Source: Hypomesus transpacificus | Lineage: Eukaryota; Chordata; Actinopteri; Osmeriformes; Osmeridae | Assembly: GCF_021917145.1 (NCBI RefSeq) | Contig: NC_061061.1 | Span: 13,332,908-13,396,907 of the forward strand | DNA: 64,000 bases | Direction: 5' to 3' | In this document: positions 56,336 through 61,116 of the stretch, piece by piece | Layout of the letters: the number at the start of each line of letters is the position of its first letter | Numbering within the stretch: the first letter of the stretch is position 1 | The notes under the pieces: generated by a model | The model's input: only the letters and a program-made list of their open reading frames with translations | What the model was told of the DNA's origin: nothing | Databases searched by the model: none | Made by a program: the position numbers and the translations under genes

Positions 56336-59300
56336 ATGATGCAAAAAGAAATCAAATATGGGATCATATGTTTAATGGCTATTTCAGGTAAAACTGTGTG
56401 TGTGTCTGTCTGTCTGTCTGTCTTGTCTGTCTGCCATCTTATAGGGCCTACAGTTTGCTATATTTTAAGCCTATTTTGATCATGACAAAACCACTTGGCA
56501 ACCTCCTCTGGTGGGTGTCTGGTGAGCGCAAACTCATACAATCCACAATAGGAAAAATATACCCTGAGAAGCAACTTGGTAGATTATAGGCTTTGTTATC
56601 ATTTGAATGAATGGACTCAGACTATATTAACACTGATGTTGACATGCTTAGTGCTCAGACTTAAGGAAGACCCCTTCCATCAGTGCCATGTATTGAATTT
56701 AGAATAATAGGTATCATTTCCCACTGGTACCACTAAGAATTAACTTCAGCCTCAATATAGCACCTTTCTGCAATTTCTTTCAGTCACTTTGTTGAAAAAC
56801 CTGCTCAAATTACTGTAACACACACACTGACTGATCTCTTACCTTTCAGCACTAATTGTCTTAACTGGTGTTGTACCTGTTGCCCGGCTCCGGAGGTCAA
56901 CTACCAGAAGTAACTTTGTCTCAGCTCCAGGGTCTGCCTTCGAATTTAGCTTAAAAATAACTAACCGGATTTACAATGAGTCACTCCTGGACGCAAACTC
57001 AATGTATTACAAACTGCTCCGAATGGAGGTGGAGAACATGGTAAGTGTGTTGCTTTATGATACTCAGAAGTTACCTTGAAGTAGGTTAGCAGATCAACCG
57101 GTATTCTATTTTAATAATCTTGGTCTGGGGTACTGGCAGCATTGTGCTTTGTAGATCCACACTCTGACAAGTATTACAATTATGAAATAATTTATCATGC
57201 AAAATCACAGATGCAAAAAATTAAATTAAATTGGGGATTGGCCTACTCAACAGAGGGTTTGAAATGGATTATCCCACATATTGTTGTTAATTTACTCAAT
57301 TTAAAAGTGTAGATTGTATAAAATCTACTTCTGTGTTGTGTTTTTCTTGCAGCTGAATGCTGTCTTTTATGAACCTTTTCTTTCTTATGAATGTGTAGCA
57401 GAAATGGCATTCAGGTGAGATAGAAGGTAATGGTGCATGTTTGTTAGCTTGAACAAGGAGATCGTACTTGGCATTTTATCTACAGCAATGGAACATTTTT
57501 TGATTAAATTATGACATCAATGTGCCACACATCTATAAGATAGTTTCACCTTACAGTGTATTTGCATCAATAAATTTATGGTTTGTCTTGTACTTTTGCA
57601 GTAATGGATCCGTGATTGCAAATACAACATTGCAATTTGGGAATCCGAGCGATAACAAGATATTGATCAGAAGCCTCTTCACCGATTATTATAATTCTAG
57701 TTACTCACCTAAGATCCTTGACCTGGACATGACTTACATCCAAGGTAAGTAAAAAAACTTGTGATTATAATTTCAGCTTTTAAATCAATGGCAAATTAAT
57801 ATAAAAGAACAAAGTGTTTATACATGTTAACAATTTACATATGTTGTCATCCTAAAGGTGAAATTCCAACACGAGTCCCATATCCTCTGAACACAACCAT
57901 GTCGGCTGTATCGTCCCCAGCCCCATCCAGCAGCCCTCTGCCCAGCAGTAGCCAACCAGGATCCACTACAGTCAACCCTCAATCTATTATTACAAGTAGC
58001 TCTACAACAAATAAACGAGCTGTCCGCTCAGCTAAAACAACTATCCATCCAACCAATGATACAACTGCTCATCCAGCAAATTATACAACTAGCCATCCAA
58101 CCACTGATACAACTAGCCATCCAACCACTGATACAACTAGCCATCAAACCAATGATACAACTGTTCATCCAATCAATAGTACAACTATCCATCCAACCAA
58201 TGAAACAACTTTCCATCCGACCAATTATACAACTATCCATCCAGCCAATAAAACAACTATCCATCCAACCAATTATACAACTATCCATCCAACCAATGAA
58301 ACAACTTTTCACCCAACCAATGGTACAACTATCCATCCAATTAATTATACAACTATTCATCCAACCAATCATACAACTATTCCTCCCACCAATAGTACAA
58401 CTATCCATCCAACCAATGAAACAACTATCCATCCAACCAATTATACAACTATCCATCCAGCCAATAAAACAACTATCCATCCAACCAATTATACAACTAT
58501 TCATCCAACCAATTATACAACTATCCATCCAACCAATGAAACAACTATCCATCCAACCAATTATACAACTATCCATCCAACCAATTATACAACTATTCAT
58601 CCAACCAATGGTACAAATATCCATCCAACTAATGAAACAACTATCCATCCGACCAATGAAACAACTATCCATCCAACCAATGAAACAACTATCCATCCGA
58701 CCAATTATACAACTATTAATCCCACCAATGGTACGACTATGCATACGAACAATGAAACAACTATCCATCCAATTAATTATACAACTATCCATCCAACCAA
58801 TGGTACAACCAGCGTTCTAATCAACAGTACAACCAGCCATTCAAACAATTTTACAACCAGCCTTCCATTCCCTATTAAAACTACATCTACCCAACACAAT
58901 GGCACAAATAGCACCACTAGTAATGCAACCACTAGTGGGACAACCACCATCCAGTCTGGGGGCACACTCATTCCTTCGACAGTTCACACCGGGGCTACTA
59001 CTTTAAGTCACACCTTAAGCAAATCTGACAGTTCAGTTGCCCCTACAAAGGCCAGTGCAGGAAGTACAACCAGTCATGTGTTGACAGAGAGCATTGGGGC
59101 AGTAGTTCTGGCTCCGAGGGCCCAGCAGGGTGTCCCTGGATGGGCCATTGCACTGCTGGTACTGGCCGCTCTCATCTTACTGCTGCTTCTCCTGCTACTT
59201 ATATGGTTGGTGAGTACACACACAGAGCACAGCAAGTCACACAGCCATACTGGGAAAATTCTACATATGTACACACTGTTGAGAAACAACATCATCATCA

Positions 59301-61116
59301 TCATTACCACACCCAACCAAAGAAGCACATAGACATATACAGTTTCTTCCTGAATACCTTTTTCAATACTTACCATTGAGATACTTTGAGATTTGTAATG
59401 GATTTTCCTTTCTTAACTATTATTCTGACCACGTTGGCCTGTCTCTCTGTTCCTCAGCTGGTGTGGGTGTGTTGCAGGAGAGACAGAGCCTTCAGCCCTT
59501 ATAACCCGATAGAAATCCCGCTGTACTCCACACACAGCCGCTTTGAGGTACCCAACGGTAAACCTTTTGTAAGTCCACTATAAAACATGCACCATAAGAC
59601 CCTAATTGGTATCTGCTCCCTCATAACTTCTCTATAGACTGGACTACACTGGTATCCATGGTTCCGGCGGGACTATGCTGGTATTCATGGTTCAGCCTAG
59701 ACTATACTGGTATTCATGGTTCAGCCTACACTCCACTGGTATTTATGGTTCAGGCTGGACTATATGGGTATTCGTGGTTCAGCCTAGACTATCCTTGTAT
59801 AGATGGTTCAGCCTTTCCTGGTATCATGGTTCAGGCTGGACTATCCTGGTAGTCAGGAGCTCTGGTTTGAGAAGACAACAGATCCTCATTTCACCAAATC
59901 ACAACACACAAACTCCTGGCTTTGTGTTTCCTTTATTCAGTCAGAATCTTGTGGCATCAGATATAAGACAAACAAAAGAGCACACTCACATGCACGCACC
60001 CATGCATAGACCTGTGGACGCACGCGCACACACAAAGACACACACATGCACACACACACACAGAGTAGAGAGAGCGAGTTTGGCAAATGCTACCGAGAGT
60101 GCTTGCTCTTGCCACTGTGTTCATAGATGTCTCTTTGTACCTAGACGGCTTTGACCAGGGAAACATGATGCATGGGAAACTGGAGCCTTCCCCATAGTGG
60201 CACCTAGCCTCACTACCCAAGCCCATCCCCCTAGCCTCACTTTCCTACTTTCACTCCCACAGCCTCACTCCTCTAGCTTCACTCTCATATCCCAACTCCC
60301 CTAGTCTCACTCCTCTATCCTCACTCTCCTAGACTCAAGCCAGCTTTAGTTTATCAGCCTAATCTCTGAAGACGGGGGGACTAACATACTAAAACATCCA
60401 CTACTATCACTGCCAATCAAGCCTTCGGAAACATGATTCTACAACTTCATAGTCTCCAACTAGGGCGTAGAGCCATGTTTAACAGAAACTGGTCTCTCCA
60501 CAAAAAATAATGCCCCTGGATGTCATTCTCATGTCTATATATTGAGCATGACCTAGAGATAACTTATCAGAAGTTTAAAATAAATGCAGTAGAACTTGCC
60601 AATGTTGCATAGAGAACTTTCTCAACTAGCTAGGAACAATGGAACCATTGATTAGGCACTGAGAAGGCTTCCAGGTCTGTGACACAGCAGTGGCAGTATA
60701 GGGTGCACAGTGGGGAGTATCAACATCAAAAGACAATGTAGTAAATAATACGTATGTTAGATACAATTCTTCTTCTTCTTCTATATCTTATTCTTCTTCT
60801 ATATTTTATTCTTATATAATGATATTTCATTTAGTCTAAGATCTGTAATGTTTGGGTAAGGGTAGGTTAATGGGATGTGAACTGCTACATTTTTTTAAAA
60901 GTATGTTCTGTGTGCCATGCCCACAACATGCAGTATATTAAGTACTTCTGTATGCTCTCTTTCTTCATAACAGTTGACCCATCGGAGAGTCTCAGAATTT
61001 ACTAAGAGACTTGTTTACTGAGATCTGTGTGTGACTGAACTGTTTTTGTTTGTAACCAGGATGAAATCCCACCCCCATCAAAGAATCGAACAGGGATGTA
61101 CGTGGTCAATAAGTGA
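56336..61116 (+). CDS. muc1: MUC1-like transmembrane mucin with N-terminal SEA domain
   Basis: Type I membrane mucin, 655 residues. Exons: 56336-56387, 56850-57040, 57353-57414, 57602-57744, 57858-59209, 59458-59568 and 61060-61116. Order: signal peptide (YGIICLMAISGALIVLTG); SEA domain (about 45-149) with the self-cleavage motif NGSVIA at 103-108; Thr/Ser/Pro-rich region with 8-residue repeats (about 208-484); GVPGWAIALLVLAALILLLL membrane segment (about 572-601); and a short tail CCRRDRAFSPYNPIEIP then LYSTHSRFEVPN, ending GMYVVNK. Human MUC1 has [36 protein letters not shown] at matching places. Together with thbs3 and mtx1 beside it, this supports MUC1 orthology. In human MUC1 the SEA domain lies after the repeats; here it lies before them. 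The start was chosen at the ATGATG giving the best signal peptide; an in-frame ATG at 56294 would add 14 residues. Confidence 0.88.
58033..58860 (+). repeat. Coding 24-bp tandem repeat of the mucin
   Basis: About 34 copies of an 8-residue unit, consensus TTIHPTNx, where x is Y, E, K, G, S, D or H. Because the next unit starts with T, nearly each copy forms an Asn-x-Thr sequon; I count 32. The Thr-rich units also offer O-glycosylation sites. The unit length keeps all frames periodic, so the long opposite-strand frame over 58028-58792 is a shadow. Confidence 0.95.
59640..59865. repeat. Minisatellite in the last mucin intron
   Basis: About seven degenerate copies of a unit of roughly 30 bp containing CTGGTATTCATGGTTCAG and CCTAGACTATA. 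A second weak repeat of CCTAGCCTCACTC-like units follows at about 60200-60340, and a (TTC)n tract lies at 60769-60810. Confidence 0.8.

Follow-up and report, generated by a model that had tools for sequence, protein, structure and literature searches.

Membrane mucins carrying a SEA domain usually follow the order mucin domain, SEA domain, membrane helix, and in the fish mucins Muc13 and I-Muc, which are likewise membrane mucins with a SEA, this domain adjoins the membrane, between the mucin domain and the helix (passages of PMC3680472). In human MUC1, the repeats are located in exon 2 (as given in a part of PMC12776774), and the SEA is linked to the helix by 14 residues, SDVPFPFSAQSGAG (joined from published sequence pieces, part of them from PMC4534190). 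The SEA of MUC1 carries the autocleavage motif G-S-V-V-V, and release of the mucin through this domain has been described (passages of PMC9564314). In the human and mouse genomes, TSP-3 is clustered with MTX1 and MUC1 (passages of PMC1464143). MUC1 or its tail is held to be confined to mammals in passages of PMC9564314 and PMC4534190, and an uncertain MUC1-like protein in Fugu (Lang 2004) is mentioned in a passage of PMC1552070. Here, we describe a mucin gene of Hypomesus transpacificus (assembly GCF_021917145.1, contig NC_061061.1), located next to mtx1 and a thrombospondin gene, in which the repeats are encoded between the SEA and the helix. The gene lies in a stretch of 64,000 nt, hereafter the window, to which all positions refer. 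All results pertain to the genomic DNA of this one species, with a single transcript assumed.

Gene structure and domain order

The mucin gene occupies positions 56336-61116 of the plus strand and consists of 7 exons separated by 6 GT-AG introns with phases 1-0-2-1-0-0, which together encode, in a single frame, 655 amino acids plus the stop codon. The start codon is a choice, another in-frame ATG being present upstream, and the signal peptide and the membrane helix were called by eye. The order encoded is leader, SEA, Thr-rich repeats, membrane helix and short tail:

56336-56387, plus strand: exon 1, leader (signal peptide by eye), ends in phase 1
56850-57040, plus strand: exon 2, end of the leader and first part of the SEA, ends in phase 0
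57353-57414, plus strand: exon 3, middle of the SEA, ends in phase 2
57602-57744, plus strand: exon 4, last part of the SEA, ends in phase 1
57606-57620, plus strand: G-S-V-I-A, counterpart by sequence of the MUC1 autocleavage motif, putative cleavage site
57858-59209, plus strand: exon 5, P-Y-P stretch, repeats, Ser/Thr-rich stretch and membrane helix in one open frame, ends in phase 0
58037-58809, plus strand: tandem array, 24-bp unit (TTIHPTNx), 32.2 copies, 83% matches
59132-59164, plus strand: VPGWAIALLVL, identical to human MUC1 at 10 of 11 residues
59458-59568, plus strand: exon 6, tail
59524-59541, plus strand: Y-S-T-H-S-R, counterpart of Y-H-T-H-G-R in the human MUC1 tail, absent from the paralogue
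61060-61116, plus strand: exon 7, tail end KNRTGMYVVNK and stop codon

The SEA spread over exons 2-4 matches PF01390 with an E-value of 9.1e-9 and 35.8 bits (Pfam cut-off 26.4), and the repeats and the helix sit together in exon 5. A preliminary description of the window had placed the SEA exons before a Thr-rich repeat exon that runs into the helix. This order was borne out: the coordinates, splice sites, phases and single frame agree, and a paralogue on another contig (C4) repeats the exon number, phases and domain order. The SEA is separated from the helix by 424 residues in the window mucin and by 375 in the paralogue and thus does not directly precede the helix, unlike in MUC1. A second SEA between the repeats and the helix was not found, as exon 5 yielded no family in a Pfam search at E 0.1, and neither did exon 5 of the paralogue.

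No mucin exon was found upstream of the SEA either. The Ser+Thr+Pro share behind the SEA is 0.50, and it does not exceed 0.28 in any of the 14 plus-strand frames of at least 30 codons that lie between the mtx1 start (55408, minus strand) and the exon 2 end; an outer mucin exon is thus not evident. At the C4 locus, the highest share among frames of at least 30 codons on the minus strand upstream of the SEA was 0.33, in exon 2 itself. Repeats between leader and SEA, as in MUC1, are present in neither gene. The window gene combines the features of a membrane mucin in the broad sense, namely a Ser/Thr/Pro-rich repeat domain, a SEA and one helix.

The SEA and mucin exons could in principle belong to two genes, or their order could result from an assembly error. 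However, exons 4 and 5 are only 113 bp apart, with compatible splice signals and phases, and the same structure recurs at the second locus, on another contig. We therefore consider a wrong gene model very improbable and infer that the window mucin is transcribed as one gene.

The mucin belongs to a duplicated three-gene block

A search of the 437-Mb assembly with the window SEA returned 7 pieces, 3 of them from the query itself, 1 from the locus L007 (E 0.06), 2 from the C4 paralogue and 1 from C10 (E 7.2), the last of which was taken as chance. The C4 paralogue is a complete gene of 7 exons encoding 609 residues in the order SEA, Thr-rich repeats, helix and tail, again with the repeats and the helix in one exon. 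The exon sizes in the window gene and C4, respectively, are 52/64, 191/179, 62/74, 143/140, 1352/1202, 111/114 and 57/57 bp. The two proteins are 34% identical in the SEA and 45% in the helix plus tail, and share an identical tail end, KNRTGMYVVN. The SEA of the paralogue scores above the Pfam cut-off (E 2e-7). The neighbouring genes in the window are as follows:

45856-55408, minus strand: mtx1 (metaxin-1), head-to-head with the mucin (GST_C_6; extent from matched exons)
34421-42348, minus strand: thrombospondin gene, assigned to thbs3 on account of the adjoining mtx1 (TSP_C and TSP_3; limits given by the matched exons only)

The window mucin and mtx1 are read from opposite strands, with 927 bp between their start codons, and the thrombospondin gene lies behind mtx1. 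The C4 locus mirrors this arrangement, with the mucin on the minus strand, metaxin and thrombospondin genes on the plus strand, and mucin and metaxin start codons 1314 bp apart. The matching arrangement at both loci indicates that the mucin-mtx1-thrombospondin block was duplicated. Fourfold-site differences between the copies, obtained from unspliced frames, amount to 0.46 of 109 sites in mtx1 and 0.40 of 255 sites in thbs3, which points to an old duplication. Since both copies share the layout of the mucin, it appears to predate the duplication in this lineage, unless both copies later changed alike. Zebrafish TSP-3a and TSP-3b are reported to be duplicates of one ancestral locus (passages of PMC1464143) and, by analogy, the block was probably doubled in the teleost genome duplication.

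The 927 bp between the mtx1 and mucin start codons (55409-56335) probably serve as a two-way promoter, unlike in human and mouse, where mtx1 and thbs3 have a promoter in common (passages of PMC1464143).

Repeats of the two copies

The array in exon 5 of the window mucin, in which a strict pattern counts 25 units, differs from that of the paralogue, which consists of 17.9 copies of a 42-bp unit. The different units of the two fish copies show that such arrays get replaced. A P-Y-P stretch is present in both copies at approximately the point of the human MUC1 SEA-helix linker, and the repeats of the window mucin lie between P-Y-P and the VPGW of the helix start.

In the window array (58037-58809), TTIHPTNx together with the TT that follows creates an N-x-T site in nearly every 8-residue repeat. 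Altogether, 36 N-glycosylation sequons are found between the SEA and the helix of the window mucin versus 7 in the paralogue, which is unusual for a mucin domain. Intron 6 contains a minisatellite-like stretch at 59640-59860, with units like TGGTATTCATGGTTCAGCCTAGACTATAC (by eye).

Relationship to MUC1

To human MUC1, the window gene is similar in its THBS3/MTX1 neighbours, the SEA with G-S-V, the helix start VPGWxIALLVL and part of the tail. It differs in that the human repeats are located in exon 2, outside the SEA, whereas the fish repeats lie between the SEA and the helix, in that the human SEA is 14 residues away from the helix, and in the repeat unit.

The preliminary description had judged both the membrane segment and a tail motif to be close to MUC1. 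For the membrane segment, this is confirmed in both copies: the 11-residue helix start of human MUC1 (sequence from a part of PMC4534190) is matched at 10 positions in the window mucin and at all 11 in the paralogue, and for neither copy did any of 20,000 shuffles, in which the composition of helix and flank was kept, reach the score. Furthermore, the back-translated helix motif occurs at two places in the 437-Mb assembly, which are the two mucins, and the reversed control at none. Searched against PDB, the helix matched other helices only, with integrin alpha-IIb first at E 0.05. In Pfam, the helix-tail pieces of both copies scored under the cut-offs throughout, and these matches were taken as chance.

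For the tail, the claim holds for the window copy alone. Window and human tails have E-x-P-x-Y-x-T-H-x-R in common, and the match to a 29-residue stretch of the human tail (joined from published peptides) was bettered or equalled by 4 of 20,000 shuffles. The SEA of both copies carries G-S-V-I-A, which is not identical to G-S-V-V-V of MUC1. In the N-terminal half of this domain, the paralogue scores best with human MUC1 (8.7), compared with 4.2 for mouse MUC16 and 4.1 and 4.8 for two genes for IMPG-like proteoglycans.

A number of observations weigh against the assignment to MUC1. The N-terminal half of the window SEA does not single out MUC1, with z scores of 8.5 for human MUC1, 8.2 for mouse MUC16 and 6.7 and 5.9 for two IMPG-like genes, and its C-terminal half is at chance (590 of 2,000 shuffles), with a weak signal in the paralogue (52 of 2,000). 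In PDB searches, MUC16 and MUC1 ranked first for the window SEA, but at E 0.5-0.8, the C-terminal half of the SEA gave no match, and the paralogue matched only unrelated chains. The paralogue tail does not match that of human MUC1 (14,501 of 20,000 shuffles) and lacks the tail motif, and the two C4 pieces, 600 bp apart, initially came up with E-values no better than 1.5 and 2.0. The membrane-proximal residues are V-C-C-R-R-D in the window mucin and W-C-C-K-K-E in the paralogue versus C-Q-C-R-R-K in human MUC1; the lack of C-Q-C weighs a little against an ancient MUC1 core. The head-to-head pairs also differ, being mtx1 and the mucin here and TSP-3 and MTX1 in human (passages of PMC1464143). 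A donor-like GT follows SEA position 37-41 in all 7 other SEA loci, but as a sign of a shared SEA intron this is weak: the cut was placed by eye, at a codon for valine, and such codons always start with GT. This forced GT, too, weighs a little against an ancient MUC1 core. Finally, the comparison covers the genomic DNA of one species.

A rival reading is that an unrelated SEA mucin resides here and owes its likeness to MUC1 to chance or convergence, in line with a window SEA that shows no preference for MUC1 and a paralogue tail that does not match. However, the helix match is found in both copies and its motif nowhere else in the genome, the locus is the same as that of mammalian MUC1, and the window tail matches, which makes such an origin quite unlikely. 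The SEA alone does not choose MUC1; it is the locus and the helix that carry the claim. Kinship with MUC1 is well supported by the locus and the membrane segment and, for the window copy, by the tail as well. Given that features defining MUC1 are lacking (repeats outside the SEA, the SEA next to the helix, and C-Q-C), we refer to the gene as a MUC1-locus homologue rather than a MUC1-type mucin. The uncertain MUC1-like protein of Fugu may be the same gene.

A search of the assembly with the SEA family scored 34 pieces, 7 of them at E <=0.001. By eye, four of the 7 are IMPG-like (L002, L003, L005 and L007) and L001 is matriptase-like; L004 and L006 were left unnamed. The IMPG-like proteoglycans share with the window mucin the SEA and a donor-like GT at a similar position within it. 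L007 differs from it by EGF-like sequence behind the SEA and a Ser/Thr-rich region before it, and the window helix motif is absent from its locus; L007/L017 carries G-S-V-V-V. No MUC1 with the human order was seen among the SEA-family pieces, which were read mostly around the match only, in a search that went exon by exon, missed the window's own SEA and is far from complete. Repeats between the SEA and the helix were not described in the open-access literature on fish MUC1 as searched by titles and abstract starts, a coverage outside which key papers lie.

Origin of the layout

The preliminary description had offered, as one reading, a MUC1 orthologue with swapped ectodomain parts. The kinship is supported by the locus, the helix and the window tail; a swap is not the simplest account, because the SEA exons and the helix exon follow each other as in MUC1 and the position of the repeats alone differs, so that nothing need have moved. 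As to the other reading offered there, an ancestral layout, the present data may trace the layout back beyond the block duplication in this lineage. The simplest account, as judged from the sequences, is repeat growth on different sides of the SEA: the fish repeats would have grown in the SEA-helix linker, within the helix exon, and the mammalian ones in exon 2. We consider it probable that the window gene is a fish membrane mucin of the MUC1 locus, the repeats of which arose in the helix exon, and that this layout was in place before the block was duplicated.

An alternative is an ancestor that was Ser/Thr-rich on both sides of the SEA, with the outer side kept and enlarged in mammals and the inner side in this fish lineage. 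In the paralogue, Ser, Thr and Pro make up 0.58 of the 24 residues before the SEA, but the share is 0.33 in the window mucin, neither copy has repeats there, and the inner side of human MUC1 amounts to 14 residues; we regard this ancestor as unlikely. A true swap, in which exon shuffling acted on a MUC1 that had the human order and moved its repeat exon behind the SEA, or the SEA exons before the repeats, appears less probable still. Exons 2-4 are flanked by phase 1 introns on both sides, and the SEA would thus be movable as a unit. However, a single exon encodes both the repeats and the helix in either copy, exon 2 holds the end of the leader together with the start of the SEA, and the repeat units differ between the copies, so that no moved exon is recognisable. 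A two-sided ancestor or an exon move would require more steps or has left no trace here.

Other features of the region

Beyond the right end of the window (C2), a gene for a protein-tyrosine phosphatase and one of the PMP22/claudin family are found (L010:5664-6035 and L011:1897-2241), followed by Ig-type frames which by eye resemble Siglecs. At a glance, trim46 and krtcap2 were not evident beyond the mucin, and no search was aimed at either. Within mtx1, repeated frames on opposite strands at 49981-50540 and 51737-52157, approximately 1.5 kb apart, form an inverted repeat array, and a THAP-like frame at 48716-48952 (minus strand) stays under the Pfam cut-off (22.4 versus 23.9 bits). Two near-identical pairs of Ig-like frames on the minus strand, at 15142-15849 and 21529-22236, represent a tandem duplicate approximately 6.4 kb apart (by eye).

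Implications for SEA mucins

Judging from the motif, the SEA of the window mucin would cleave itself at G-S, with the halves staying together as in MUC1. The order of the domains would place it at the outer tip of a rod that is predicted to be glycosylated, where it would act as a cap or contact module. Should the halves part, only a peptide of fewer than 100 residues would leave, and the mucin rod would stay covalently tied to the helix. With a short outer fragment and an anchored rod, the SEA could not act as a release catch, a role that it has at the foot of the mucin in MUC1, and shedding of the fish mucin would need a protease. By eye, R-L-R-R (exon 2, before the SEA) and R-A-V-R (exon 5, between the SEA and the repeats) resemble minimal furin sites, the second of which, as a candidate site, could release the SEA domain.

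On balance, we lean towards an origin of the SEA-helix-tail core of MUC1 and of its locus in the common ancestor of fishes and tetrapods, with the mucin part gained separately on opposite sides of the SEA, and with an autocleaving domain at the tip in the fish, where it cannot serve as a release catch. The presence of the MUC1 helix start in a fish gene at this locus disagrees with the published mammalian origin of MUC1, and the window tail argues weakly against confinement of the tail to mammals. Furthermore, the inverted placement separates two possible roles of the SEA, as release catch or as something else, that are inseparable in mammals. With two old copies in a single genome that differ in their repeats, the recurrent origin of mucin domains becomes open to direct testing.

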